Of a stretch of DNA of 64,000 nucleotides, positions 10,434 through 38,000 are shown one piece after another. The notes under the pieces were generated by a model. It searched no databases and was not told the DNA's origin. It saw only the letters and a list, made by a program, of their open reading frames with translations. This DNA comes from Tomocerus qinae (lineage: Eukaryota; Arthropoda; Collembola; Entomobryomorpha; Tomoceridae): positions 5,084,001 through 5,148,000 of the forward strand of contig CM034549.1 in NCBI GenBank assembly GCA_020055645.1, in the 5' to 3' direction. The position numbers and the translations under genes are program-made. The stretch's first letter is position 1. The number at the start of each line of letters is the position of its first letter.

Positions 10434-10719
10434 TTAATTGTTTGGTTTGAACCGTTTGACAGGTTTCTCAAAAATAATTTCTACTGATTGTCTCGCAAGA
10501 CTTTTTTTGTTTGAAGAGGCAGAAACATTCATTGGTAGTGGGTTTATATTTTCATCTTCGTCAATCCCAATAACCGCAATAGGTTTGTTTTCTGTGCAGC
10601 CAGAGCCATACCTTTCGTAGTCCTTTTCTTTGTAGTTCGTAACTGTCCAGTCCCCTTTGGCATTAATAAGAACACGTTGGGTCTCCTTGTCACACGATCG
10701 TATAATGTCTTCAAAATAC
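10434..10719 (-). CDS. PIAS: PIAS last coding exon (C-terminal tail with SIM)
   Basis: This exon follows the acceptor CCCAAG in gene orientation and begins in phase 2, completing a glycine codon split with the SP-RING exon. It opens with YFEDII, matching the helix that follows the SP-RING in PIAS proteins, and includes the INAKGDWTV segment typical of that position. The SUMO-interacting motif candidate lies in its middle. It ends at a TAA at 10434-10436. The exon is separated from the previous one by 4896 bp, nearly all of it DIRS element. Confidence 0.9.
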
Positions 10720-13700
10720 CTTGGGAAACATTATATAAAATTGTACGATTAAGCGAACTTACGTGAAGTTCGATCGTAATTTTATTAAGCAGTGCTTCCC
10801 GAAGGCATCACGTTGATAAATAATTGTAGTAGCTTCTGTCAGAGGCCGCCTTGTCCACTTATGTTTAAAGATCTATAAAGAAAAGAAGCTACACTATGCC
10901 ACGCGCGCCATGATCACGTCATTGTTTTTAAAGCGTTTTTTGTCCAGTATTTGGGTCGGGTAGGGTGGGTGTGATGCCTTCGGGAAGCACTGCTTAATAA
11001 AATTACGATCGAACTTCACGTAAGTTCGCTTAATCGTACAATTTTATGGCAGCAGTGCTTCCCTCTGCATCACGTTGATAAATAATTGTAGATGTTTAAA
11101 GAATATGCCAAGACAAAAAACTGAGCTGCGATAAAATTGAAAATTTAATTAGCATTCCAAGTTCAGGTTGACAATTAATTAGCGTAGCACAAAGTGTCAG
11201 TGATTATAACCCAAAAACTGATCTAGTAAACTCATTATTTTCAATAACAGGTCGATTATAAAACTTTGTGAATACGGATGAAGAATTAGACCATCCCGCT
11301 GTCTTTCTAATTTGATCTAAACTGATTCCATTTTTGAATGCCGCCGAAGTAGCAGCATGCCTACAGCTATGAGACGAAAACATTTTTGTGTCAATTCCAC
11401 TTTTATTTAATACATCTTTAACCCATCGACTTAAGTTTGATTTCCTACTGGTTTATATGGCTTTACCAGACCAATAAACAAACTTTGACAATCATTCTTT
11501 CTCAAAGATTTAGTTCTATCTATATAGGCTATAAGACACATATACAAACAACATTCAGGCTTTTCAGTCAATTTTGGAATGAATAACCGAGGTTGAACTC
11601 TACCAGGAGCACTGGTTTTTATAAGATCCTTTATAAAAATTTCTATACAACTATCTTGGATGTGGATGTCATCCAATTTTATTTTAGAGAATGTCTGCAT
11701 TCGATGCGCTGTTGCTAAGGCCATTAATGTAACACATTTAAACGACAAATCTTTAAATGACAATTGTTCATTTGGCAGCAGAGTACATATATAATTTAGC
11801 ACTACAGCAGGATCCCATGTACGGTCATATTTAGGAGTAGGAGGTCTCATTCTCGCTACTCCTTTTAATATTCTAGTTATAATAGGATGTAATCCTACTA
11901 AATAACCATCGATAGGAGGTAAGATTAAAGAAAGTGCTGAACGTGCCGTATTCAAACTGCTATAGCCAATCCCAGTTGAATATAAATAAGTGAAATAAGT
12001 AGAAAGTTGAGCCAGAGACGAAATAAATGGAGATTGCTTTTCATTGTTACAAAATTCTATCCATGATTTGTATGTTCCGTTGTACTGTGCCCATGTGGAT
12101 ACTGCTAAAGAGTTGAGTAGCATTTCGATTGAATTTTGGTCTAGTCCTCTGCGGACATATCCTTCCCGGACAAAACTCCGGCCATCAGAGAAAGAGTATT
12201 GGACATGGGATGATTCCTGTTTAAATAACACAGTAAATTAGGTTGAGGTGATATAATGAGGCAATGTCCAACAGTCATTGACTTAAAAACTGGGTACCAT
12301 GGTTGACATTCCCAGTTTGGCACAACCACAATACCACGGGCCTTATCAACTCTAATTTTTTGAAGAACTCTTGATATTAAAGAAAATGGTGGGAAAGCAT
12401 AAAAGTTTAACCTAGTCCAACTAATAGTAAATGCATCCACTTTATAAGACTCTGATTCAGGGAACCATGATACGAATAATGAACATTTCGCATTTTGGGC
12501 AGTTGCAAACAAATCAATTTTTTGGGGTACCTAAATTGCTTGTTATGTGCTTATATACATCCCAATTTAATTCCCATTCCGTTTCCATATGTACAGAGCG
12601 TGATTCTGCATCAGCTATAAAATTATCTTTAGTATTAATATAAGTAGCAAAAATAAATATTCGCCTTTCTTCACAAAACGACCAAATGTCTTTGGTGACC
12701 GAATGTAAATGACTGTATTTTACACTACCCATTCTGTTAATACAACTTATTGCAGTTGTATTATCTATGTGCATTAAAATTTTTACATCTCTCAAATTAT
12801 ATGCATACTTATACAGAGCATTATATGCAGCCTGAAGCTCTAAATAATTTATATGCTTTTTGCTTTCTTCACTATTCCACTTTCCACCCCAGGAATTCAT
12901 TTCAAAGGATGCTCCCCATCCAGTATTTGAAGCGTCGGAATATATTTCAAAATCATAAGTATCATTTCGGATTTCCATTTTAGCCAATGGTAATGTCTTC
13001 ATCCACCATTCTATTTCAGATTTTTCACTATTACTAATTGAAATTCGAGTACTATAATTTCCCTCACTGTATTTCAGTGATAAATATTTCTTTCTTTCAA
13101 GAACTTTTGTATACAGCATGCCGTAGGGGACAGCAGGAGAAGCGGCAACTAAAGAGCCAATAAATTCAGCTAAATGGCGAACAGAGCATTTAGTTTTAAT
13201 GCACATTTCATTGCAGCGTATTAAAAGCGCTTTGCGCTTATTTTCTGGCAATGACAAGGTCCATTTGTTGGTGTCAATATCGAAACCTAAGAATTTTATA
13301 GTTTGTGTAGGGACAAGCACAGACTTTGTAACATTTAAAATAAATCCAAGTTCATGAAAAAGATTAGTAGATATCTGCAAGTTTGCTAGACATTCTGCAT
13401 AGCTCTTTCCTATCGCCAAATAGTCATCCAAGTAAATGACGGAAATATACCCCATCCCTCTTAAATAACCAACTACTGGTTTCATAAGTTTAGTGAAAGT
13501 TCTTGGTGCCGTTGATAAACCAAACGGTAAACACGTAAACTCATATAGCTTATTATTCCATTTAAAACGAAGGTATTTCCAGTGTTTCTTTGCTATTGGA
13601 ATTAGGAAATAAGCATCCTTAAAGTCAATGGAGCCCATATACGCTCCTGGTTCTATTAGCCTCAAAGCTGTTTTGAGGTCTTCCATTTTGAATTTTTCAT

Positions 13701-16700
13701 TGTACAAAAACTTATTTAATGCTTTCAAGTTAAAAATAAATCTTTTTGAGCCATCAGGCTTGTCTACTAAGAATATATTAGATAGAAACTGATTTTTCTT
13801 GTATGTACAGACTTTTACTGCGCCTAAATTCAGCAAATTATTAATTGCGTTGTTAATTTCATGTATCTCTATAGGAGAGAACTGCTTGAGTGTAGGTATA
13901 TTTCTTTGTTTGGGTTTGAATAAAAAAGGCAAAGTATAGCCTTTTATTATACTTAAAACGGATTTGTCTGCTCCAATCATTTTCCAATTTTGGATGTATG
14001 TGGCTAGACGACCTGCATGACTTACCTCGTCGTTGTTTAACGCTGTCGGTGTTGTTGCCCGCCTCGAGATTTCTGGTTGTATCGGGTAACTGGAGGCGGG
14101 CGGAATGAGTTTAAATTCCGACGTGGAGATTTCCGACGTTCACGAGTATTGACCTCTCTTGTTCGAAAAGAATTATTGCCCATACTTTTAGATGGCACAC
14201 TCCCAGAGGGTTTAGCTAAATCTCTTCCCGCTTTGGCGATGTTTTCAGCGGCTTTTACTTGACCACTAAGATCGGATCCGAATAATTGAGGATATAGTGG
14301 GGCATTAAATAGCACCTCCTTCATAGAGTAATCTTTAATGTTTGCACGGATTTGTTTACGGCGAAATGTTGATAATGAGAACTGAGTACCCATTAAATAT
14401 CTCCCAGCCGTGCTGAGACCTTTTAAAATTGTCTTTTTATCCACATCCTTCTTATCGTCAAGAAGGTCAGTCATCAGATTACCTAATAAGGTTCCTGTAA
14501 CTGCAATATGATTTTGCATTCGCAGTAAGCTTCCATCTTGATCCTTGGTGTAACCAGGAATTACTTTTCTCAATTCTGGGTTAATGATTGGACCTGAAAA
14601 AACAGTTACCTGGCATTGGATTGGCTTTCAAAATAGAATCTCGTTCATCTTTCTCCAACCCTTTTTGTGCGATAGCAGACCATCTTTGAGCTATTGCGGA
14701 GTGGAAATCTGGACCTGTAGGGTCTTTATTTTTAGGCATTTCTCCTAAAATAGACTGTGTCTCTGCATCCAGAACGTCAATTTCTAAAATGTCGGCATCT
14801 TTCTGAATATTTGCATCGGATCGCACCGAGCTAATATTGTCTCTGGTTTGAGAACAAGGAGAATCTCTACTATGAGATAACGGTGAGCGAGATCTGCTCC
14901 GAGATTTATCATCAGTTTCCGATGAACTGGAAGTTGACTGGTATTTTGCCTTTCTCTTCCTTAATTGCTTAGTTAGCTGTTGAACAGATTTCTCCAATTT
15001 ATCGAGACGCTTCGAGCGTCTTTTATTTTTCTTCGTTTTACGGCAACGACTCCTGTGGCTAGAATCGGATTCTGAGTCACTGGTCATTTTCAAGCAAACC
15101 CTAATACAATTATCAATTGGATATTAATGAAAATCGAATAAATTTAAATAATGTATAAACTTGCAAATCCAATGGGTATTATTGCGTACGTCACTTGTTA
15201 ATGGTTATAAACATTTGCTTACCCAAGTATTTGACACTAGTAAATGTCATAAAGTTAACACTTTTATCGGAAAACCAACAGGTTTCTGGACTTACCAATA
15301 CCAGTTTTACAAAACGAAAAAACCAAAATTTTTCAAAATTTTACCCTTTATGCGCAAAAAAATCGCAGCGAAAAAAGTTGCTGTTGACAGACGGCCACTT
15401 AAAGAAGCAATGACGTGATCATGGCGCGCGTGGCATAGTGTAGCTTCTTTTCTTTATAGATCTTTAAACATAAGTGGACAAGGCGGCCTCTGACAGAAGC
15501 TACTACAATTATTTATCAACGTGATGCAGAGGGAAGCACTGCTGCCATAAAATTAGCTTGTCTATCTATCAAAATGTATTTAAAAAATTACATCTCTGTA
15601 AATTATTACACTTACCCATCGATTCTAATATCGTCATAGTTGATCTGATTAGAGCAAATGGGGCATTTCCAAGTCGGACGTACTTTGGTCATCTGGAGGA
15701 ATGTTTCAATGTCAAAGCAAGAGTAATGTGTACATGTTGTTGCTCTGCAGGGGCTTAACATCCTGCTTTTTCCTAATGGGCATACCAAAGAAACTTCCAT
15801 ATAAGACCCACTCTCCATCACACCATCCGATACAGATCTGTCAATCACCCCTTTGACTGAAAACAAAATAACATTAATATAATTAATATATAATATAATA
15901 ACATAATATGTATTGGTGTCATAATGTATGTAATTTTTATGTAAATAAATTATTTTTATTACCCATATTAATAGTAGACGATTTGTCAATCAAAGGTCTT
16001 CTCAAAACAATCGTTAGCAGCTCGGTGTCAGTTACCTTTTGCACTAAAGCCATGGAAAAATAAAATTCACTGTCCTTTGGCAAAGCATCTACTTCCCATT
16101 CGATTTGCATGCAATTTATTCCTTCGTCAATCATATTGATAGGGACATTTACTGTAGGGTTTAATTGCGGAGCATGCTTGAAATTTAGGATACTCAAGGG
16201 TAAACCATTTATTGAGATTTTCGTAGGGATTCCATATTTTTCCATTATCTTAGCAGTCTTCCTTATTTTCGTCAAACGAATGTCTACCTGGAAAAATCAA
16301 TTATTTCTATATACATATGTACATAGTTATTTACATACTTACTTATTTATATATTGTTTTATATACACATAAACATAATTTAAAGATTCATGATAGCATT
16401 TATCATTTTATTTACATTTATTAAAAGAATCAAGACATAATTTATTATTATTATTATTACCTTAAAGGAACCGTAGTGAGCTTCTAATTGTGGCCTGAAA
16501 TCGCAATTAAAAATAACAATTTTTTTCAAAGGTTCAAAGCTACCTCCATCACCTGAAAAGCAAATCATTTAAGTATATATCCGGAAAACGTACAGGGTGG
16601 GCCTGAATGAACCGGAATTTTAACTTTAACTCTTAATAATTTTGGAATAGGTAACTTTATTGAGACTAAAGTAGTAGCATCTGAAAGAGCATTTAGTCAA

Positions 16701-18569
16701 AATTAAAATTTTGAACACCATTGAAACACAAAAACCGACTAAAGAAGGTCGCGAAAAAATTAAAAACGACAAAATCTTGTAAAATTTACATTTTGTAAAA
16801 TTAAATAGTCACATTTCATGTTTGAAATGAATATGGCGAAATTGACGAAAGAGCGGAAAGTGTAAGGATTAAAGAGGTAAAGAAAGTTCAAATTGAGTTC
16901 CAGCAAAAGTTTAACTTTGTTTCCAAGTTTTACACGTTCCCAAGTCGTTCCCTTTTGGTGTAGGCTAGCATTTGGTCATGAGGCATCTTAGGTCCATCTT
17001 CAAGTTGAACCGTAGTCTTCGGCTTTCTAGCATACGTTCTATCCTTCATCAAACGCCATTCTGAAAAATCCATAAGGCTCAAATCAAGGGAACGCGGGGG
17101 CCATGAAATTGGACCACCTCTACCTGTCCACTTACCCGGGAAATGTTCATCCGCATCCATGCCCAGACATCCAGTCTGAAGTGGGAATGATAGAAGGTCT
17201 TGCATTAGCATAAGGTTTTCATAGTTTGGTAACGTTTGAATTGGGGGCCAGATTTCGTTGTTTAACATGTTTTATTGGCGTTACATGTTTCTGTAAAGAA
17301 AAACGGACCTAAGATACCTCCTGACCAAATGTCAGCCCACACACAAAGGGAACGACTTGGGGACGTGTAAAACTTGGGAACAAAGTTAAACTTTAGCTGA
17401 AACTCAATTTGAACTTTCTTTACCTCTTTATTCCTTACACTTTCCGCTCTTTTGTCAATTTCGCCATATTCATTTCAAACATGAAATGTGACTATTTAAT
17501 TTTACAAAATGTAAATTTTACAAGATTTTGTCGTTTTTAATTTTTTCGCGACCCTTTTTAGTCGTTTTTGTGTTTCAATGGTGTTCAAAATTTTAATTCT
17601 GACTAAAAAACGCATGCTCTTTCAGATACTACTACTTTAGTCTCAATAAAGTTACCTATTCCAGAATTATTAAGAGTTAAAGTTAAAATTCCGGTTCATT
17701 CAGGCCCACCCACACACTGCACAATGCAATAGGTAGGACTATAAAGAATAATTAATTTGGAAACGTATTTACCTTCAAAAATATTATCTTTAACTGCAGT
17801 CGGTTTGATCAAAAATGCCTTTGTTTGATAAAACGGAGTGGATGGAGCCTCCGGGAATCTTGATTCTACGTTCATCGCATCAAGGAGTTCTAAAGACTTT
17901 CTACGAAATTCAATGGGATTTAGCGTCTTGGATGGAACAGTCTTCTCAAACTCAATTCCCTTGGTGCAAATGTTATTTTGTTGAAAAGAATTGCATAAAT
18001 CAGCTGTATCAATTTCAGTATTTGAGTTATGCCTAGCAGTGGCAATCTGCCGTGTGAGTAAAACTGGAGACGTCGGCATCGTCAATTCTGGTCTTAGTGA
18101 ATTATTCTCTGGTATTGGGACCAATACACTTGGTGACCTTTGTGGCCGTCTAGTTGACCACGATGAAAAACGGGCTGGTCGCATAGCATTGGGTGCTGTA
18201 ACTGGTGGGACGATTGGTACTTTTGGTACAGGTCGCACAGGGACACTTCTGCTACTACAAGTAAATGATAAACCGGAAGAGGTAGAGTTACTTACAGACG
18301 ACGGGCTAACTTGTGTTCCCTGCGGACATAATACATTAACAGTTTTGTATTATCCAGGTTTAAAAGTTAGATTTATAATATATAATTAGTGACAGTACAA
18401 GAAAAGCATGACAAAGATGAGTTGTATCAATATAGCCCAAAAATAAATGTTATCAGAAGGAGATACTCACCTCTAATGCCTTGTACGCAAACATCATTGA
18501 TGTTAGAGTCTCCGGAGTCCGACGGTATCTAATGGCTAAAGGATTCGGTGTCTCGTAATAATAGCTCAT
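10434..18569 (-). CDS. PIAS: PIAS-family SUMO E3 ligase, six exons, complete
   Basis: This predicted nuclear SUMO E3 ligase would transfer SUMO from Ubc9 to transcription and chromatin proteins. Coding exons in transcript order are 18569-18471, 18319-17773, 16552-16461, 16287-15963, 15856-15616 and 10719-10434. All junctions are GT-AG and the phases close exactly, giving 529 residues. A Ser/Pro-rich N-terminal part leads into a PINIT domain that starts near a TPFYQ motif. The SP-RING has its zinc ligands at about C391, C396-H398, C401, C419 and C422, following CPLG at 380-383. The C-terminal exon carries a hydrophobic-acidic stretch, AVIGIDED (about 483-490), that fits a SUMO-interacting motif. 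The usual N-terminal SAP domain is absent: the first exon encodes only 33 residues and the second begins Ser/Thr-rich. The last intron is filled by a DIRS retrotransposon and the intron before exon 3 by a foldback element. Family identity is secure; the start codon is less so. Confidence 0.93.
10743..10924 (-). repeat. DIRS left inverted terminal repeat
   Basis: From about 10803 to 10924 this is the exact reverse complement of 15408-15530. The outer part (10743-10802) is specific to the left end and differs from the right terminus: it has CGAAGG where the right end reads CTCTGC in the same orientation. That difference helps show how the internal complementary region was built. Confidence 0.92.
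10971..11091. repeat. DIRS internal complementary region
   Basis: The first half, 10971-11040, is the reverse complement of the left terminus, including its CCTTCGGG segment. The second half, 11041-11091, is the reverse complement of the right terminus, including its CCCTCTGC segment. The two meet at a single AATTTT. This is the head-to-tail terminus junction expected for the region that DIRS elements are thought to use as a template for completing their ends. Confidence 0.93.
11204..12231 (-). pseudogene. DIRS tyrosine recombinase, frameshifted
   Basis: This would be the recombinase that integrates the circular DIRS intermediate. The open part, 12231-11431 with no ATG at its upstream edge, has the N-terminal SAM-like core-binding region and the first catalytic arginine in the motif ATAHRMQTF. 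The frame then closes at TAA near 11431. The catalytic C-terminus continues in another frame down to a TAA at 11204. It carries HSCRHAA (the HxxR box), a conserved tryptophan in TAGWSN and the nucleophilic tyrosine in TKFYNRP. The shift lies near 11440-11455 and is consistent with loss of one base. The 5' end overlaps the methyltransferase frame by about 90 bp, as is common in DIRS elements. All catalytic residues are present but split between two frames. Confidence 0.9.
12141..12512 (-). CDS. DIRS Dam-like DNA methyltransferase domain
   Basis: This frame continues the reverse transcriptase polyprotein after a one-base shift. It opens with a DLFATAQNAKC segment, then DAF...W, then YAFPPFSLI, and later VVVPNWECQPWYP. 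The order resembles the phage/bacterial Dam N6-adenine methyltransferase family reported in DIRS elements, with FPPF in the place of the catalytic NPPY motif. Whether it retains enzyme activity cannot be told from sequence. It has no ATG of its own at the domain start and is most simply the C-terminal part of the polyprotein in 13980-12514. Confidence 0.78.
   Translation of the reverse strand: MFATAQNAKCSLFVSWFPESESYKVDAFTISWTRLNFYAFPPFSLISRVLQKIRVDKARGIVVVPNWECQPWYPVFKSMTVGHCLIISPQPNLLCYLNRNHPMSNTLSLMAGVLSGKDMSAED
12514..13980 (-). CDS. DIRS reverse transcriptase / RNase H
   Basis: The reverse transcriptase motifs occur in order: DKPDGSKRFIFNLK, SIDFKDAYFLIPI, LPFGLSTAPRTF and the catalytic YLDDY box, followed by TIKFLGFDID. 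RNase H follows, with four acidic residues in EIYSDAS, LELQAA, HIDNTT and ADAESR. An ATG lies at 13980, but the frame is open upstream into the gag-like region. The residues just before the ATG (GRLATYIQNWK) also fit the family, so translation may enter by a -1 shift from the upstream frame. The frame ends at a TGA at 12514 directly after an A6 run; the methyltransferase continues one base out of frame. Confidence 0.95.
   Translation of the reverse strand: MIGADKSVLSIIKGYTLPFLFKPKQRNIPTLKQFSPIEIHEINNAINNLLNLGAVKVCTYKKNQFLSNIFLVDKPDGSKRFIFNLKALNKFLYNEKFKMEDLKTALRLIEPGAYMGSIDFKDAYFLIPIAKKHWKYLRFKWNNKLYEFTCLPFGLSTAPRTFTKLMKPVVGYLRGMGYISVIYLDDYLAIGKSYAECLANLQISTNLFHELGFILNVTKSVLVPTQTIKFLGFDIDTNKWTLSLPENKRKALLIRCNEMCIKTKCSVRHLAEFIGSLVAASPAVPYGMLYTKVLERKKYLSLKYSEGNYSTRISISNSEKSEIEWWMKTLPLAKMEIRNDTYDFEIYSDASNTGWGASFEMNSWGGKWNSEESKKHINYLELQAAYNALYKYAYNLRDVKILMHIDNTTAISCINRMGSVKYSHLHSVTKDIWSFCEERRIFIFATYINTKDNFIADAESRSVHMETEWELNWDVYKHITSNLGTPKN
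14037..15087 (-). pseudogene. DIRS gag-like ORF1, frameshifted
   Basis: This is the putative nucleocapsid-like protein of the element. The first part, from the ATG at 15087 to a TAA at 14581, has an Arg/Lys/Ser-rich start with a Lys-rich predicted coiled coil (DKLEKSVQQLTKQLRKRK). The second part, 14573-14037, continues the family pattern (INPELRKV, then a basic Arg/Gly/Gln tail) in another frame. The shift maps to a T6 run (read on the minus strand) near 14605. The tail overlaps the start of the reverse transcriptase frame, and a strong splice-donor-like GAG|GTAAGT sits between them, near 14021-14028. Confidence 0.85.
15408..15554 (+). repeat. DIRS right inverted terminal repeat
   Basis: 15408-15530 is the exact reverse complement of the inner part of the left ITR (about 10803-10924). 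The outermost bases, up to AAAATT at 15549-15554, match the second half of the internal complementary region but not the left terminus. The right end lies 61 bp inside the PIAS intron, measured from the exon ending at 15616. Confidence 0.92.
15616..15856 (-). CDS. PIAS: PIAS SP-RING (MIZ) exon
   Basis: This exon encodes the catalytic SP-RING that binds Ubc9. It contains VSLVCPLGKSRM, PCRATTCTHYSCF and PTWKCPIC, the classic PIAS spacing of the zinc ligands, and ends with a split glycine codon in DIRIDG. Acceptor TTTTCAG| and donor GG|GTAAGT are both strong. All expected zinc ligands are present. Confidence 0.95.
15963..16287 (-). CDS. PIAS: PIAS PINIT-domain exon
   Basis: The exon begins VDIRLTKI and contains ISINGLPLSI, NVPINMIDEG and YFSMALVQKVTDTELL. 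These match the PINIT domain region that recognises substrates and contributes to nuclear retention in PIAS proteins. It is flanked by TTCCAG| and ATGG|GTAATA. The frame joins cleanly to both neighbours. Confidence 0.9.
16461..16552 (-). CDS. PIAS: PIAS short PINIT exon
   Basis: A 92-bp exon encoding a segment around FEPLKKIVIFNCDFRPQ, bounded by TTTTCAG|GT and TTTAAG|GTAATA. It completes the split glycine codon from the previous exon and ends in phase 0. It corresponds to the early PINIT strands in PIAS proteins. Confidence 0.82.
16595..16955 (+). repeat. Foldback element left arm
   Basis: It begins GGGTGGGCCTGAATGAACC and is complementary, with scattered mismatches and small indels, to 17345-17711. 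One indel lies where this arm reads GCATTTAGTC and the other arm reads GCATGCGTTTTTTAGTC. Confidence 0.88.
16930..17268 (-). pseudogene. Mariner-like transposase fragment
   Basis: A 112-codon open frame with mariner/Tc1-type C-terminal motifs: WPPRSLDLSLMDFSEW corresponds to the common WPPRSPDLTPLDFFLW block, which includes the third catalytic acidic residue. Family proteins exceed 300 residues, so this is a truncated remnant. Its 3' end runs into the left inverted arm. Confidence 0.75.
17345..17711 (-). repeat. Foldback element right arm
   Basis: Inverted partner of 16595-16955. It ends in CAGGCCCACCC, the reverse complement of the left terminus. Confidence 0.88.
17773..18319 (-). CDS. PIAS: PIAS Ser/Pro-rich exon ending in the start of PINIT
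   Basis: A 547-bp exon following CCGCAG|. The first two thirds are low-complexity, rich in Ser, Pro and Arg. The end carries TPFYQTKAFLIKPT, matching the PFYD...LIKPT entry of the PINIT domain. An in-frame stop directly upstream of the acceptor supports the exon boundary. The donor is GAAG|GTAAAT. Confidence 0.85.
18339..18464. repeat. PIAS intron 1 segment duplicated at 19285-19406
   Basis: This 126-bp intronic segment recurs in direct orientation at 19285-19406 with about two substitutions and one 4-bp deletion. The copy stops a few bases short of the PIAS donor site. Confidence 0.9.
18471..18569 (-). CDS. PIAS: PIAS first coding exon
   Basis: An ATG at 18569 opens 33 codons (starting MSYYYETPNPL), followed by donor GAG|GTGAGT in phase 0, which matches the next exon. 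It contains no SAP-like helix pattern. An unseen upstream or alternative first exon cannot be excluded. Confidence 0.68.
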
Positions 18570-19604
18570 GTTTAAAGTTGTCAGAAATTGCAATGCTGAA
18601 ATGCAATTTTCGATAATGCGGATTAAAACGAGTTCTTTTAAAGACTAATAAATAATGTGAGTCTATGTGATGTGATTCTACTGGCGACAATCACTGAGCG
18701 TCTTGTTCCTATCATTGGTCCTTTTTGTCCGCTACTCTTGTCCATGCAGCTACCTACGAGAAAGAAAGAAAGAACGACGTGTTATTGGCCTTTATCATTA
18801 TGCCTCACCTATTCAAATTCTACAATATATTAAAATGATTATACATACAATACATAGTCTACAATAATATTACAAAACTACAAAGCAAGTTGTGGAAGGA
18901 ATAGCTAATTTCAATAGTCAAGCCATAATATTATGGATATTGAAATCCATTTCCTAAGAAGACTAGCACAGCTCCTAACTGAAGTTTACTGAATGGAAAT
19001 TGAGGACAAAGAGGACAAAGACGCAAAAATTGAAATGAGATTGTTATCTGCTTGACGTGTTCATACAGGTATTCATACAACCATTTTGATTACTTATCAT
19101 GTCGATTTTGTTACATGGAGAACGACTGGATTTTGTGTAATGTTATTCCCATGCTAAGTTACAATATTATTGACTGGCTGACGGCAGTAATTCATGCAAC
19201 TGCAATCCCATAGGTCAGGTCAACCTACAGATTCATTCAGCTTTCCATATTCCTCATTCTCAATAGACCTTTACCAAGAACTATACAGTTTTGTATTATC
19301 CAGGTTTAAAAGGTAGATTTATAATATATAATTAGTGACAGCACAAGAAAAGCATGACAAAGATGAGTTGTATATAGCCCAAAAATAAATGTTATCAGAA
19401 GGAGATTAAATAAATTGAATGATAATTGATCCCTTCCGACCAGGAGTTATGGAATAAATTAGCTAACCTTTTTGGGCTTTAAAACACTTCGTCTTCGCCA
19501 AGTTTCATTACATTTCACAGAAAACTTTCTGACTTGCAAGAGCTTCTTCTCCTCAGAAAAATATCTTTGAAAATCCAGCTTCTTAGCTACATAAAAATAG
19601 AAAA
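18570..19604. promoter_or_regulatory. Divergent intergenic region, PIAS / zinc-finger gene
   Basis: About 1 kb separates the start codons of PIAS (minus) and the zinc-finger gene (plus). It must hold both promoters and 5' UTRs. No TATA box or initiator stands out clearly. It contains the duplicated intron fragment at 19285-19406. Confidence 0.55.
19285..19406. repeat. Copy of PIAS intron 1 fragment
   Basis: Direct copy of 18339-18464, about 950 bp away. It lacks TCAA after GAGTTGTA and differs at about two other bases. It carries no splice site and no coding sequence. Confidence 0.9.
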
Positions 19605-21753: not shown

Positions 21754-24700
21754 ATGGGAGTTCAGGATATTCGTCTGCCTCCTAAGTGGATTGAATTAAA
21801 CTTGACAAAGAGAGAGTGTTTTGTTTTCGTTCCTACAGCGGAAGATGAAACAATGTGTCAATGTGGGCGTCGAAAAACAGATCACGGAGACTATGTGAGA
21901 AGTGCTAGTCATGGTCGAGAAACCTGGAACCCGGCTCATCATACAGAAACATTTCCTACAGACGCATATGGAACGATTCTTTTTGAAGGAGAGCACCATC
22001 CCAACAAAGCTCATGTAAATCCTAAGATTAAATTGATTAGTTGGAATAGCAATCTACAACGGGTCTAGGGATAAAGAATAGATAACGATAGTCCAAAAAT
22101 CCTAATTATTTCTGATAAATGTTTAATATTGGTATTTTAGTACGCGAGATTATCTTACGACACGCATCCGGAGTTAGTTGTTCAATTGATGACTTTAGTA
22201 TGGGGGATAAAAATGCCCAAGTTAATCATATCAGTCCGTGGTGGAGATAACAATTTCGAGTTGACCCCTCGTCTCGGTAAAATACTTCAAATAGGACTAA
22301 CAAGAGCAGCCAAATCGACGTCAGCTTGGATATTTACAAGTGGTCTCAATCGGGGAGTGTCCAAACACATTGGAAATACTCTGGTCATGGGTTATAAACG
22401 AGGTCGAATGGTCAGCGTCGGAATAGCTCCGTGGGGACTGATAGAACACAGAAACGAGTTGATCGGGAAGAACAGGGACAAGGTCTACAATCCATTAGAG
22501 CATGCTTCCTCTAATTTTGTTTTGCTCAATCCAAGACACTCGAATTTCTTATTGGTGGACAACGGAAGTGTAGGGAAAATGGGCGGGGAGAGCTACTTCC
22601 GTCGAAGACTCGAGAAATGCATCGCCAGCTATCCCACCAGCCAGCGTAATTTATTTATGCTAATTCCACACAATTGTCATCGTAGGGTAGTTAAAAGGGT
22701 CTATTGATTAAAAATCTGTTTGATCATGATTTAGATAGAGGCTGTGACACACCTATCATAGTAATTGTAATTGAAGGTGGTTTCTACACTTTAAGAACCA
22801 TTGGCGATTGTTTGTACGATGATCCACCTGTCCCTGTTGTCATTTTTGCTGGAACGGGCCGCACTGCTGATCTAGTTGCAATGGCTATCAGAAAAACAGA
22901 CGTAAATGACGAATTAGAAAGCTTCAGAGACGAAATTTACTCTTGGATGGTTCGATTTTATAACGTGAGTGTTAATCAATGCAGTCTACTTTTCACGGAA
23001 TTAAAAAGGATCTTGTTCAAGAGAAACCTTGTGAGTTTTCGAAATATCGAACCAATTTTCTTGGAAGATTTCATTGAAATACAAAATTAATTTAACTTTA
23101 AAAACAGTAAAATGATTGGATAGATAACGGTGTATAATCCTTACACAACCACTGACGAAGAGTTCGATGCAGTGATCCTGAAGTCCATTTTCCGCTCACA
23201 ACATTGGTCACCTCTTCAGCAACTTTCCCTAGCTCTTGTTTGGGATCGGGTGGATATAGCTGCTAATGAAGTTTTTGTTTACGGCAGGGAATGGTCCAGA
23301 GGTAGACTTCAGAATTTTGCTCCCAGTGAATAAAAAGATTATCCAGAGATTTTTAATATTTTCGTTTTCGATTAAAGATCATCTTGAGCATGCAATGATG
23401 GAAGCTCTTGTTTCCAATCGGTTAGAGTTCGTCCACCTTCTACTGGAACACGGTTTGAATATGCAAACATTTTTAACTGCTACAAGGCTGGAGTCTCTGT
23501 ACAGTGCGGAAAGAACACATTCAAATCTAATGAAAAATCTCTTGTACGAGTTAGCAAAAATTCGGGCATCGTACAGCCGAGTTCAAGGGGCCCAGACAGC
23601 CTACGAGCGAAATTTAACTCTTCACGACATCGGTCTTGCTCTGTCACACATGATGGGCCATGTCTACAAATCAAATTACATTCACATCACGTCAAAAACA
23701 ATGGGAAATAAAAACACATTATTCGGATTGCAAGTCGAAGATTCTCCAGCTCCGACTTTTGCACAACCTTTCGATGATTTATTTGTCTGGGCAGTTCTAA
23801 CACAACGGCATGAGATGGCCCAACTTTTATGGAGACATGGACAAGGTGCCTTAGCTAAAGCTTTAGTTGCTGTCAAATTAAACAAATATTTAGCGATGGA
23901 GATAGCAGAAAAATCTCAGACTAATCTGGCAGAAGAATTCCAGGGTTATGCAACTGTTTGGGAGAATTTATCTTTAGATTTACTGGATACTTGTTTCCGT
24001 AATGACAGTAAACAAGCAAGGCAATTATTAACAATGGAGCTGGAGCATTGGTCTAATCAAACCTGCCTCACGCTTGCTGTGATGGCTAATCACCGAATGC
24101 TGATGGGACACTCATGCTGTCAGATGTTATTAGCTGACCTATGGATGGGCGCTTTGAATATTCGCAGCAATGTAACCTGGAAAGTCATTATTGGGATTTT
24201 CTTTACTCCTTTGGTTTTTTTCTTGGAGTACAAATCGACAGAAGAACTCAAATTATTGCCTCATCAAGAAAAGGAAGGTTTAAATCAAGCAGAGGCGCCA
24301 GTCGTTGACCACAGTCGTAAAAATAATTCGGACTTCATGTACTACAACTCTCATGATAATAGCGTGATGACTTTTAAAACGGATAAAGCCAGTATTGCTC
24401 AGTTAGGTAAAAATACACCAGCGGACAGTGAAAACAGAAAATCACGAATGATTCACGACAAGAAAACGGATTTGGCCCAAGTGGCTCAGAAACTTATTGC
24501 CACTCCCAATAGTAAACATCACCACCACCATGACCATCATTCAAAACATGTGGACATTCGTGAAGGTGACAATATCGCACTGAATCTCCACAGTACCGAA
24601 CCTGAAGATCCTGTCTTCCCTTCTTTCAGGAATTTGCATGAAGATCTTAAACCACAAAATCCCCTTCCCCGTCACGAAAAAGTAGAGCAGTCTAGTTTTG

Positions 24701-26567
24701 TCACCAATCGTCAGATTTTGAGTCCCATGAGCAAATTCTACGAGTTTCAAAAAGCACCAATTACCAACTTCTACCGCCATTCGGTAAGTCTATCCTGAAA
24801 AACTTTTACAAAACACTGGAAAATATAAATTCCCAGAATTTGCAACCTTTTAGATTTTGAGACGTTTGTTTTTAATTTCGGAAAATATTGAATGCTTTCA
24901 GTTGGCGTATATTGTATTCGTATGCTGTTTGGCATACGTTATTCTTGTCCCTCAAAATCCGAAGGAGCCTGGAACATTAGAAATGTACGTGATATCATAT
25001 CTTTTTACTCTCGGCTGTGATGTACTGCGAGAATTCATCAATATCGATGCAGTGAGCATAGTACAGAAGTGGATAGAATTCAAGTCTCATGTTTGGCAAC
25101 TGGCAGATTTTTGTTTGATTATATTTTTCCTCATCGGAGTTTCATTTAGGTTTTGTGGACAGCACGATGTAGGATTCCTCCTCTACAGGGTATCTTCGGT
25201 TTATTGGAATCTAAGACTGTATAAGTACATGGGGGTGCATCGATTCGTTGGTCCGAAAATTGTTATGATGAGTCGCATGATCAAACACATGGTACGTACA
25301 TAATTATACTTTTCTCAGGTGGACAAGGTTGATAAAAGTTATGTTGGATCAATTTAATTCATGTATATCTTTTAAAAAGGCTTATTTTGCCATGATAATA
25401 CTGGTCGTGATAATAGCTTTTGGAGTGGCTCGTGAATCTATCCGATTTCCAGATTTAGCTCCAACGTGGCGAAATATTGCCGAAGCATTTCTTGAGCCGT
25501 GAGCGATAGTATAAATAACATCTTCATCTTCACAGCTGATTTATATGTAACTGCTTTTCGAAATTTTCTAGATATGTAATGATGTTCGGAGAGGTGGACA
25601 CGGATGCATTGTCTCCTCAATGCGGGGAGGAAGGTCAGCCCACCTGTCCAATTGGCTCTTGGATAATTCCATTAACTTGGGCTGTCTACATGATGGTGGC
25701 TAATATCCTCATAGTTAATGTTTTAATTGCCGTGTTCAACGGGATTTATTCGGAGGTCGATGGGATAGCATTAGAAGTAAGTGATTTTATTCGGAGTTAA
25801 AATGACTACCAATTACCAGAACCGGAAAAGATTTAATCTCTATATGTTAATACAGTTGTGGATGTTTCAAAGATTTACTTTCGTCATGGAATTTGAACAG
25901 AAGCCTCTGCTTCCCCCGCCCTTCATAATCCTGTGTCATTTATACTCCATTCTAAAATGCATTTGGAGTCAATGTATGTTATGCATATGTGAAGAGACAC
26001 TCGATATCAAAGGCATGGAATTTGAAGACGGACCTAGAATAATCGTCGGTGATGACCACAGCCTCAAAACCTTTTTAACTAGTGCAGAAGCTAACCAAGT
26101 AATGACGTGGTTTATATTTAATACCTACTGTAATGATCCTATTCATTATTTTCATTATCTTATTCAATTGTCATCAGATATTCGATTTTGAAGAAGACAA
26201 TCTGGACACGATTAATGCTGGAAACGACTCCTTTCAATATAAACTCGGAGAAATGATGGTTCCAATGGACAAAAATGAAAGCCAGCATCCTTTGTTCGAA
26301 TCTAACCGTTTGGACAACAAAGGATTACAACAGTTACGAACTAACTTTAGGGATTTGTATGCAGAAATGGAGAGTCACCGGGAAAAACTTGACAAGTTGA
26401 TTACGTATTGGGAAACTAGCTGTGCGATAAAAGAAACTCTTAATCCAGAAATATCAGAGATTCAGGAAACTGTTATCCCTGTTATGGACAGATCTCTGTT
26501 CAGAGTTCAGACAGTATCGGCGGCAACTTCTACACACGCTTCAGATGTCAAAGGCCATAAGATCTAG
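21754..26567 (+). CDS. Trpm: TRPM-family cation channel, ten exons
   Basis: A plasma- or organelle-membrane, Ca/Mg-permeable TRP melastatin channel. Exons: 21754-22014, 22141-22645, 22735-23030, 23124-23301, 23378-24783, 24902-25291, 25380-25498, 25572-25776, 25856-26098 and 26178-26567. All phases close, for about 1330 residues. The N-terminal TRPM homology (SLOG-like) region has WIELNLTKREC, TDAYGTILF, ISVRGGDNNFEL and VPVVIFAGTGR. The ankyrin-like central region has LSLALVWDRVDIA. The pre-S1 helix is at LLADLWMGA...KVIIGIFF. After S1-S4 come the pore motif MMFGEVDTDA, S6 (VANILIVNVLIAVFNGIYSEV), a TRP-helix WMFQRF...LPPP and a C-terminal coiled coil. There is no C-terminal kinase or NUDT9 domain. 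The loop before S1 has a His cluster (24517-24549). The first exon may be preceded by another coding exon. Confidence 0.93.
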
Positions 26568-33800: not shown

Positions 33801-35080
33801 TCAAGGATGACCTTGATCTTTTTGGTGTTGCTGCATCATTTCAATTTCCAGATGAGCTTTTCTCTCCATTGTTGAATTGAGATGATTATTAATACGATCT
33901 GTAATGTGAGCAACATCTTCGCCAAAGGCGAGAGTGTGTGGCCGTGACTTTGGACTGGAGTAGTCTGTCATTGGGATCGGAATGCTTAACCCAGCAGTTT
34001 TTCGACACTGCTCATCTGTAATACTATTACTCAAAAGTGATGAAGACAAAGCTAAGGTGTTGAGTCTTGATTTACTTTTCAGAGTATCTCCACCTCCGGC
34101 GCCCGAAGGAGATTCCAAAGCCGGAGAATTCGCAAAGGATAAGTTAGGAGAGGAAGTCACTGAAGGCCAATCTGTTCTCTTTGATAATTCTTGTTCAATC
34201 TCAAGATATGCTTTCTTTGATTTATTTTCCCCATTGCGTTTTAACCGGCAGTCAAAATTAACTTTTCGCGCCAAAAAGAAATTTATTACTCCATACTCGA
34301 TAAGAAGAGCTACGATAAAATTGGCCAATGGAAAACCTAAAAGTTTGACACGGAAGAAAAAGTCTGTTGGCAACATCATGTCGAACGTTGAGATCAACCA
34401 TGAACAAGGCCACAAGACGAGATAAATTGTGAAGGATGTCATTACTGCGAGGGATATCAAGAGTCGGGGATTTGTAACTAACGATTTTCTATACGGAGCC
34501 CCTTGGGAGAAAACAATGGCCATGATTATATACTGAAAGGTCGATACTGCGAACAAAGTGTAGTTTTCGTAGCCAGCGTATTCGTTGTCTACCTTGTGGA
34601 CGTACGGAGTGAACCACGGTTGTTGGTGGACATAACTAAACGCTAGATTCTGGACAGCTATTATTGTACTCATATGGAGCAAGATGGAAAATACTGGAGG
34701 CAGTGACACCAAACTGGCTGACGGTGGCGTTTTCACCAGAGGACCATCAAAAGGCTCCGTATGTCCAAAAAATAAAGCGAAGACGGAAATGAGGAAAAGA
34801 TCTATGTACAGAAATTGTATATCCGACAAATTAGATGCAATTGTGTAGAGTATGATGACGCTGGAGAATTGAGTCAATGAGTAAACGGCCATGTATTTGA
34901 AGATCCCGAAAGACGTGACCAAGGCAGCTCGACCTTCGCGAATCAAATTTGGCACACATGTTATGTTGGCTTCCTTGGACGTGAACGGGGATGCTACCGA
35001 AGACTCCGCTTCAGAAAGTGACATTCCCGCGTGGGCTGCTTTCAAGGCTCCACAATCGTTTGCTCCGTCGCCACACATCC
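33801..35080 (-). CDS. ATP13A: ATP13A exon: hinge, M5-M10 and C-tail
   Basis: Starts after CAATAG| and completes a split glycine codon leading into MCGDGANDCGALKAA. SLSEAESSVASPFTSK follows, as in P5B ATPases, then hydrophobic helices and a tail of about 150 residues rich in Ser/Pro with SKSRLNTLALSSS. The stop is TGA at 33801-33803. Confidence 0.95.
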
Positions 35081-38000
35081 CTATTGACACACAAAAAAAT
35101 TATCATTAGCTCTAAGGTCGATCAGTAAACATGGAAAAATAGAGATATGTGACACATGTTGCTAATCGCCACTCAGTTTTCTACTCTTGCAGATCAACTC
35201 GATTTGGCACATCTCGCAAATTCCGTTCAGCTTTGCTTGTTCTTAAGTCTCATTTTATTGCTGCAATTCAAAGCAGACTCAGCAACACTTTTCTTTCAAC
35301 ATTTGACCTTGCTCTAAACATTTCCTTTCTGTCTACTATTTATTTACTATTGGTCTATCTGTCAGTAATTGCAAATTGCAAGTCGTTTCAAACAGATACA
35401 CACAAGATATGAGGGGAATTTAACCCGTTAATACACGTCATAAGAAACGCTATACAATCCTCTAGTCAAGTTTCTTTCAAAAATCAACAAAAGAAACCAA
35501 TCGGAAACTCTGATTAATTTTAAATGGCTACCTCTCTACAAAATTCGGATTTGGGCAACCCGAGACGCAGTTGGTCTGAAATACATTGCTAAACTTGTCT
35601 ACCTGACATCCGTTGAAACTACGTAGTACGCAGTAATGGAATATACAAAGGGTAATCATTACATTGAACGAAAGGAAGTGAAACTTAAAAGTAAAGGAAG
35701 TCCAGGAATTAGTGAAACATCCAGCTACTACAATTCACCTGCCTTTCACAAATACAACAATTTATCATCAGTCTTTCATTAGGAACATCGCAGACAGAAA
35801 ATGAAACTGTCCTTGCTCTTGTCTAGATAACTACCATTGAAAGCCCAGGAAAACAATACAATGAATGGTATATCTAGAGAGGATACTTATACTTACATAA
35901 CACAATATAATTTGCTACTATATGCACTATAATGTATTCTCAGCTAATGCGTAATTCCTCTGAACTTAGTTCACCCATCACGTAAACATATACGGAGATT
36001 TCTAAATTGACTAAAGTATTAAATCCCAAAATCTCTTATATTCACGGAATTTCGGCTCATTTTCCTTTACAATACAAAGTATATAATCAAAGCATCGTTT
36101 TAATTACTAAGCACAGTAGTAGCTTATGTTTAGAACAAAGTCAGGTCAACGGCCAAGAAATCCTAAAAGTCCTATACAATTATTAAAACAAAATCAAAAG
36201 GAAATATTAGCCTAAAAGGACACATTGTATCATAGTAATCAGTTTTCTATTCGAGTCAAATTAATTAAAAGGCATTTGTTCACGATTGTATTACTAAAGC
36301 TAACATAACTGAAATAACAAAAGGGGTCGAGAGAATAGGCTAAATGCTATCACAGCATTCCACGTAAAGTAATACCCTATGAAATAGTGCCCTATAATTG
36401 TCTACACTAATTGGAAACATTGCTATCAGCTGCTGGGAAACTCTAATAGGGAGAGTAATGACAATCATAGAACTGACAACTTCCTGCGCGACCCTCCCTT
36501 CTCTGAACAAACACTTTCTCTTTTCTCTAGTTTACTCCATATAAAACTTTCACCAGTACTTTTACCAAAATCCTTGCCTACGACGTACGGAAAGGTTGGG
36601 TGAAAATCTAGCAACATTTGAGCCGATAACTTTCAGTAGGGTTGAATTTCTAATATCATCCAAAAACGTTCAGACCTCTAATTATTTCTTACGCCATATT
36701 TGTTACAGGTTTCATCTGCAGTTATTGTTATGGTCGACCTTCTCCAATAATTAAAACCACAAGCTAGAAGGTTTAATAGAGATAGGAACCAAATGACAAC
36801 TGTTTTCCTTCGTAATTGGGATTTACTATTTAGAGTATAGTCATTTAGTCTACAGTTGAGTAATTTGTTTTTTTGAATAATTCATTGGTTCTTGTTTGTT
36901 GTCGCAATCATCTACTGCATACTGTAAAGGCAGAAACATGCCATTGGTCAAGAAAGTAGGTCCCTATAAACAAAGACAAATTCCGAAGACTGATAATGAT
37001 AGGATGTCTAGTTTGGATCACGCAACTATTATTTGCAGCATGTCATATCAGTAAAAGTTTCCAAAGAATAAATTGGGCAAGATGATACAATAAATAAGAA
37101 TATTATATGAGTCCGCAAGAAATAATGGGGAAGAGTTTTGTTGATAACTTCAGTTTGACCTAGTGAGAAGGAATTCGTGCTATCTGTGTTTGTCTAGTTC
37201 TACTCATACTTGAATACCAAAGTAATATAATTTTTTTGAGTATATCTTTCATTCATGAGCGTCTAATATTATGGCAAATGCAAGAAGTATTATCAGTAAG
37301 CAAATGTCTTTTCTATTGTGTATTTGCTCTTTTCGGGTTTATTTCCGAAACTAAACCTAAAATCTGTGTCTAGCACTCGCATTTAATAAATTCTTATCTG
37401 CTCTCATAATACTACAAAGAGGCGACACGAAGTGCTCTACTTTCTCCGTATAAGTCCCAGTCTGTCGTCGTTACTGTCAGTGACCTGGATTCTATTTTGT
37501 TAGCACTTTCCCTTTTAATACACCATTTTGTATTTACTACATAAACCACCCATCTCAGATTGGGGTAAGAACTAAGTAAGCCCTTAGCAAAAGGGATTTC
37601 ATGTCTGTCGAAAGTGAAAATTGGGAGGATGCGACAAAAGAAAAAGAATGATAAATGTATTTAGGATGACCTGAATGACTTGAGTTGACTTGCCTGACCT
37701 AGATAAAAATACAGATAAGTACCACTAAACTTCGTTGTTAAAAACAAAGTAGTATCAATATCAACAGCAACATATCACATACACGAGCTTCGACATGCTA
37801 CAATAATCAGGAAAATTGAGTTTTTCTTCCTCTATCTCCAATGATTTTCCAAACCAATGTCAAAGTACTTATAAGCTGATCAGCCTAGTCACTTTGTATA
37901 GCGAAATAAATAACAAAACTCCGTTTTCCACTCGCCTGAATGTAATCCTAGAAAACTCGATATTAGTAATGAGGAAATAAAGAGAGTTTTCTCTGACAAA

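Follow-up and report, generated by a model that had tools for sequence, protein, structure and literature searches.

Can an intron still be spliced correctly when a retrotransposon has inserted tens of bases from its acceptor, in what appears to have been its branch point? This question is raised by the last intron of a PIAS-like gene in the collembolan Tomocerus qinae (GenBank assembly GCA_020055645.1, contig CM034549.1). The window analyzed here is a stretch of 64,000 nt (contig positions 5,084,001 to 5,148,000), part of a genome of 334 Mb in 115 contigs; positions given without a contig are those of the window, and all features located by them in the gene and in the element lie on its minus strand. 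A first-pass annotation of the window had proposed that a DIRS element displaced the host branch point and that host splicing may now depend on sequence of the element.

The Host Gene and Its Paralogue

Six exons on the minus strand join into a PIAS-like frame of 529 residues, which is open to its end. In a Pfam search the predicted protein matched zf-MIZ, the SP-RING finger (1.6e-17), and its residues 193-484 aligned with PIAS2 (3.1e-26) on both sides of the finger. SAP and PINIT gave no Pfam match at E up to 1, and the PIAS2 alignment starts well upstream of the finger. The exon with the finger (15616-15856; zf-MIZ 1.8e-18) reads GATGG before the donor, and its frame runs on to 10719, the first base of the last exon, whose coding part (10436-10719) encodes the C-terminal region from YFEDII to KPNN and the stop codon and is covered by the PIAS2 alignment. 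The intron between these two exons, the last of the gene, carries the element; it is 4896 nt long, with the donor GG/GTAAGT at 15615 and the acceptor CCCAAG/G at 10720. The acceptor and exon start named in the first-pass annotation are confirmed: the AG is at 10721-10720, and both the unbroken reading frame and the PIAS2 alignment extend over the 15616/10719 join.

The naming of the gene as PIAS is supported by the SP-RING finger and the PIAS2 alignment, but it has to be qualified, as sequence comparison indicates that the window gene is a diverged PIAS paralogue and not the sole PIAS of the genome. Another PIAS gene is located on contig C2 (locus L084, G000:C2:39997000-40003000); it is 41% identical to the window gene over 86 residues, and its counterpart of the DIRS-bearing intron, which agrees with it in codon and phase, measures 87 nt. 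The SP-RING finger of L084 is closer to canonical PIAS than that of the window gene, and two C-terminal acidic stretches resembling SUMO-interaction motifs were seen by eye. The protein search gave five matches, three of which are the window gene and two diverged, and no empty copy of the insertion site was among them. The Drosophila PIAS homologue has reportedly been linked to piRNA silencing.

Further repeats are found in the surroundings. In the PIAS-like gene, the long intron before the DIRS-bearing one (16553-17772) contains a pair of inverted repeats of 201 bp with 93% complementarity (within 16800-17500), and a short frame inside this pair resembles a fragment of a Tc1/mariner-type transposase. 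Most of the 151-nt first intron recurs almost identically, as read by eye, some 950 bases upstream (18330-18470 and about 19290-19440). The neighboring genes at 22141-26567 and 33801-35099 look like a TRPM-type channel and a relative of the polyamine-transporting ATPase 13A2, respectively.

The DIRS1-Like Element

The retrotransposon occupies 10739-15554, a net insertion of 4812 nt, and its orientation is sense to the PIAS-like gene, as had been annotated. Its inverted terminal repeat arms of 123 nt, located at 15405-15527 (left) and 10805-10927 (right), are 99% complementary and are predicted to pair in a duplex of -231 kcal/mol. The internal complementary region (10971-11091) contains the fused-end sequence GTAC-AATTTTAT-GGCAG and comprises an arm of 77 nt for the right end and an arm of 52 nt for the left end, each 100% complementary, which overlap on AATTTTAT. 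A gag-like region (14037-15123) is divided into two frames in the window copy and matched no Pfam family, and the reverse transcriptase/RNase H frame (12514-14139) matched RVT_1 above the curated cut-off (7.9e-19). The methyltransferase-like frame (12141-12530), which is separate from the reverse transcriptase frame in this copy, matched the PHROG DNA methyltransferase family (phrog_111) with an E-value of 0.019, and the shortened tyrosine recombinase frame (11431-12237) is a piece for which no Pfam family was matched. In another copy of the element, L076 on contig C2, the corresponding frame matched Phage_integrase (PF00589) at 2.2e-13, above the cut-off, which identifies it as a tyrosine recombinase; matches of L076 to RT_RNaseH_2 (0.016) and Dam (4e-4) were both under the curated cut-offs. 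An alignment of the two copies over 4820 positions has 7 mismatches and 5 gaps (99.6% identity), and because of this near identity the insertion is regarded as young and may be polymorphic.

By its sequence, the window element belongs to the DIRS1-like retrotransposons, which, according to PMC3266345 (Piednoel et al., 2011), recombine at a short circular junction with a core of 3 bp and produce no target-site duplication, a model with which the junctions read here agree. It shares with the elements characterized in that paper the reverse transcriptase, the tyrosine recombinase (in the sister copy), the inverted terminal repeats, the internal complementary region with the fused-end junction, and the insertion at a short shared core. 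Unlike them, the window copy has interrupted frames, and the core is the 4-bp AATT, perhaps extending up to 8 bp.

Junctions and the Empty Site

Fourteen distinct right junctions could be read from 20 fetched end regions and the window; excluded were L017, which duplicates L016, the left ends L010, L013, and L015, the truncated L014, L024, which had no match, and L028, which contains the internal region only. The core AATT is present at 13 of the 14 sites, with free host sequence directly after it, and the remaining site reads AAGT. All five left ends begin with AATTTTATGG after the host sequence. At two of the 14 right junctions (the window and L012), AATT is followed by TTAT, which also stands in the fused ends; the sequence common to element and host may therefore extend to 8 bp in some insertions.

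In the window, the upstream host part of the intron consists of 61 nt (15555-15615), which begin with the donor GTAAGT at 15615 and end in GACAAGCT. The left copy of the core (15551-15554) follows, and the right copy (10739-10742) is followed by the host remainder TTATATAATGTTTCCCAAG, 19 nt including the acceptor (10720-10738). The host side of the acceptor had been given as 17 bp; as judged from the junctions of other copies, it is instead 19 nt plus the shared AATT; with AATTTTAT as the shared sequence, it would be 15 nt plus 8. Both junctions share AATT (or AATTTTAT) alone, and there is no target-site duplication beyond this short core. Because the right junctions of other copies reveal the core, the empty site can be read as 61 + 4 + 19 = 84 nt, ending in CAAG-CTAATTTTATATAATGTTTCCCAAG, and this reading is the same for either core length. 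The 87-nt intron of the paralogue is independent support that the ancestral intron was short and that few host bases, if any, were lost. On these junction sequences, the anatomy of the insertion is near certain.

Branch-Point Signals in Host Introns

The consensus of the branch point is yTnAy, and an AG-exclusion zone extends upstream of the acceptor. Hexamers of the ctaat type are the most frequent branch hexamers in Drosophila (PMC2483917), and scanning for the AG has been described (PMC10946897). The signals of the host were collected from 39 introns of the genome: 25 kept from 34 called in chaperonin genes (PF00118), 6 from 12 called in proteasome genes (PF00227), and 4 each of the window gene and the paralogue, which were read by eye. 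The introns of duplicated genes (L063-L065, L073/L074) were all counted, and the 39 introns are not fully independent. Their median length is 119 nt; the shortest, read by eye, has 65 nt and the next 80 nt. A YTAAY motif whose A lies 15-32 nt before the last G is present in 22 of the 39 introns, against 5/39 at 33-50 nt and 8/38 at 45-62 nt; as the sample grew, the count for the first zone went from 14/29 to 17/33 to 22/39. The 25 YTAAY motifs within 10-35 nt of an acceptor have distances of 16-31 nt. YTAAY is an unreliable marker of the branch point, because 17 of the 39 introns lack it in the 15-32 nt zone. AAG acceptors are in use and not rare (6/39).

The Split Motif and the Motif Offered by the Element

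The AG-free zone of the empty intron contains a single YTAAY, CTAAT, whose A lies 21 nt from the last G; the zone begins immediately upstream of this motif, which is the putative ancestral branch point. The insertion core overlaps CTAAT, and the motif was split. At the left junction, host CT and the core together still read CTAAT (15556-15552), with A15553 as the candidate old branch adenosine. At the right junction, the two bases ahead of the core are AC in place of CT, and the former position of the motif, still 21 nt from the last G, is now taken by ACAAT (10740-10744) with A10741. Displacement of the predicted host branch point, which had been suspected, is thus likely and more sharply defined, since the predicted motif was cut at the core itself. 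The annotated argument that the host remainder is too short for a normal branch point does not hold strictly: A10736 (TTTAT, 16 nt) remains on the host side and A10741 at the core, and YTAAY motifs occur at 16-17 nt in other host introns.

The occupied intron has a single YTAAY in its AG-free zone, the TTAAT of the element at 29 nt. It is part of CTTAATC (10747-10753), which the first-pass annotation had placed about 30 nt upstream of the acceptor as a fair match to a branch point; the candidate adenosine, A10749, lies within the 16-31 nt range of the genome. TTAAT stands at the same place in 13 of 14 right ends and is therefore a property of the family, not particular to the window copy. Among 1419 arbitrary segments placed upstream, 252 (18%) would supply a YTAAY in the AG-free zone at 18-33 nt, and so would 21% of 20,000 random 25-mers; the replacement motif on offer is lucky yet unremarkable, with a chance of about 20%. 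The element end also contains the donor-like GTAAGT (10757-10762), likewise annotated before and the top-scoring donor of the scored region, but it was rejected as a donor for the acceptor at 10720, as the intron would have 43 nt with the branch adenosine 13 nt from the donor, which is too short.

These observations suggest the following course. A young DIRS1-like element would have inserted through exchange by its tyrosine recombinase, and the AATT core used would have belonged to the CTAAT branch-point motif in the 84-nt intron of the PIAS paralogue. The intron would thereby have grown to 4896 nt, and the change from CT to AC ahead of the core would have weakened the old motif, leaving as the best remaining motif the CTTAATC of the element, 8 nt farther upstream. 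The exon at 10719 would still be joined in some transcripts via A10749, with reduced efficiency. We assign to this reading, in which the element split CTAAT and correct splicing uses the element-borne A10749 less efficiently, a tentative probability of about 45%. If 10719 is used, the candidate A10749 is the most likely single branch choice. The efficiency of correct splicing is probably reduced by three factors: the weakness of the acceptor, the location of the motif in a predicted perfect hairpin, and competition from better acceptors inside the element. The suggestion that splicing depends on element sequence is tenable with respect to the distance of CTTAATC and is weakened by the predicted burial of A10749 and by these competitors.

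Acceptor Strength and Competing Outcomes

The host acceptor at 10720 scored 2.8, and 36 of the 39 host acceptors scored higher in leave-one-out scoring. When a first matrix was applied to the 29 introns used to train it, all of them scored above the host acceptor; with leave-one-out scoring 7 of 33 introns and then 3 of 39 were lower, and the 39-intron version is used here. Among the AGs of the occupied intron alone it ranks 52 of 283; the earlier ranks of 27/294, 40/294, and 52/291 took in about 120 exon bases, and the first two also covered sites near the donor. The top of the 283 AGs is an element-internal acceptor at 12217-12251 (9.0), with CTAAT 21 nt upstream; another, at 11126-11160 (8.8), has CTAAT 23 nt upstream. 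Those at 13824 and 11895 also outscore the host acceptor with YTAAY in place, below these two, and 15101 ties with it; such a ranking cannot foretell the choice of acceptor, and cryptic sites of this kind are common in AT-rich DNA. Splicing to 12216 or 11125 would end the protein 24 or 26 residues past RIDG, respectively, in hypothetical tails, and with retention of the intron a stop follows RIDG at once; in each case the C-terminal part of the PIAS-like protein would be lost.

It is quite possible, although we do not favor it, that splicing to 10719 largely fails, that the intron is retained or spliced to 12217 or 11126, and that the cut-off protein is tolerated through the second PIAS gene; the insertion may then be a polymorphic loss- or reduction-of-function allele. 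Intron definition has a size limit, and the growth from 84 to 4896 nt argues in this direction, as do the two internal acceptors that outscore the host acceptor with branch motifs in place. In dogs, exon skipping results from a SINE that lies 15-16 bp away from an acceptor (PMC3976383). The 99.6% identical copy elsewhere also fits, as a young insertion need not yet have left traces; the absence of visible decay in the six-exon frame, open throughout, speaks against failure to that extent only, and the limits of acceptor scores noted above apply to this alternative in particular.

An improbable alternative is that the branch adenosine is A10736 in the host remainder or A10741 in the shared core, so that splicing to 10719 would be independent of element-specific bases. 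The host YTAAY motifs at 16-17 nt and the old distance of 21 nt kept by A10741 are consistent with it. Zones of merely 14-19 nt without AG occur in 5 of the 39 called introns, but these very short zones may come from wrongly called introns. Neither adenosine belongs to a YTAAY motif: in ACAAT the base two positions ahead of the adenosine is not a T, and TTTAT is at the short end of the range.

Predicted Folding of the Intron

The right end and the internal region are predicted to form a 77-bp hairpin (-135 kcal/mol), in which A10749 is wholly paired, and the left end pairs with its internal arm at -92 kcal/mol. In a joint fold, the two adenosines of the left CTAAT are unpaired with probabilities of 0.83 and 0.70 and A10749 with 0.00, in a calculation that used a strand break, leaves the long loop without an energy cost, and has the acceptor partly paired with the exon as well. 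The internal region has one copy of the core, and the left CTAAT could therefore stay open if both ends were paired with it. In fission and budding yeast, the effective distance from branch point to acceptor is reduced by folding of the sequence between them (PMC9508853). In PMC2773006, the complementary repeats in large introns are different SINEs or LINEs in opposite orientation, for the most part in vertebrates, and the present intron resembles those introns in that complementary repeat copies are predicted to fold the intron and bring the splice sites closer; the difference is that separate repeats do so there and the ends and internal region of a single element here. That the element folds itself out in this way, with the internal region pairing both ends, as has been proposed for replication of the element, and so keeping the two host flanks together, and with the old CTAAT (15556-15552) used near its old effective distance, is nevertheless hardly to be expected, since some 4.4 kb would have to be looped out from branch point to acceptor and the pairing of the terminal repeats (-231 kcal/mol) competes with it. 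We know of no precedent for a folded loop of that size at this place.

Related Cases and Significance

An element near an acceptor that displaces the branch point is a known kind of event, of which the window provides a new instance. In PMC3976383, dog SINEs are located near the acceptors of FAM161A (at -15/-16), SILV (9 bp), and HCRTR2 (35 bp). The likeness lies in a mobile element tens of bases from the acceptor and a putative branch point pushed away. Exon skipping was proven by mRNA for FAM161A, whereas the window case is read from DNA sequence; in contrast to the dog SINEs as described there, the motif itself was split here and the element end provides a substitute. Among titles and abstract openings in one open-access collection, no DIRS element in a branch point was found.

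Beside the other right junctions no exon was evident by eye. L016/L017, with TTTTTGCAG 19 nt past AATT, were considered as a second case and rejected, as a TATA-like box precedes a start codon there and no exon was shown. At these loci, which are two copies of one duplicated right end, and at L029-L032 (contig C1, at about 139.587 and 139.685 Mb), the right end of a related DIRS element lies just upstream of a TATA-like box and start codon in two copies of a duplicated gene. The identity of these copies is 97% over 1142 bases, the element end included.

The outcome of splicing at this locus is a prediction, and the stakes are lowered by the divergence of the gene and the presence of a second PIAS gene in the genome. 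Nevertheless, the insertion of a retrotransposon into a predicted branch point can be read cleanly in the window, where the empty site, a replacement motif, an uninterrupted paralogous intron, and a near-identical sister copy are all known. Whether the end of an element can take over as a branch point, and what becomes of an 84-nt intron enlarged to 4.9 kb, can thus be tested cheaply and precisely. A broader idea, very unlikely in our judgment and built from one insertion and the positions of motifs, is that the DIRS family is pre-adapted to branch points, with its AATT core falling within CTAATT and the TTAAT of its right end replacing the motif 8 nt upstream. If this were true, an AATT-targeting family would tend to strike the branch points of AT-rich introns, and its internal complementary region may also fold the element out and restore the old effective distance of the split motif. 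Sense insertions would then return a replacement branch point, and the element would be a guest that spares its host gene.
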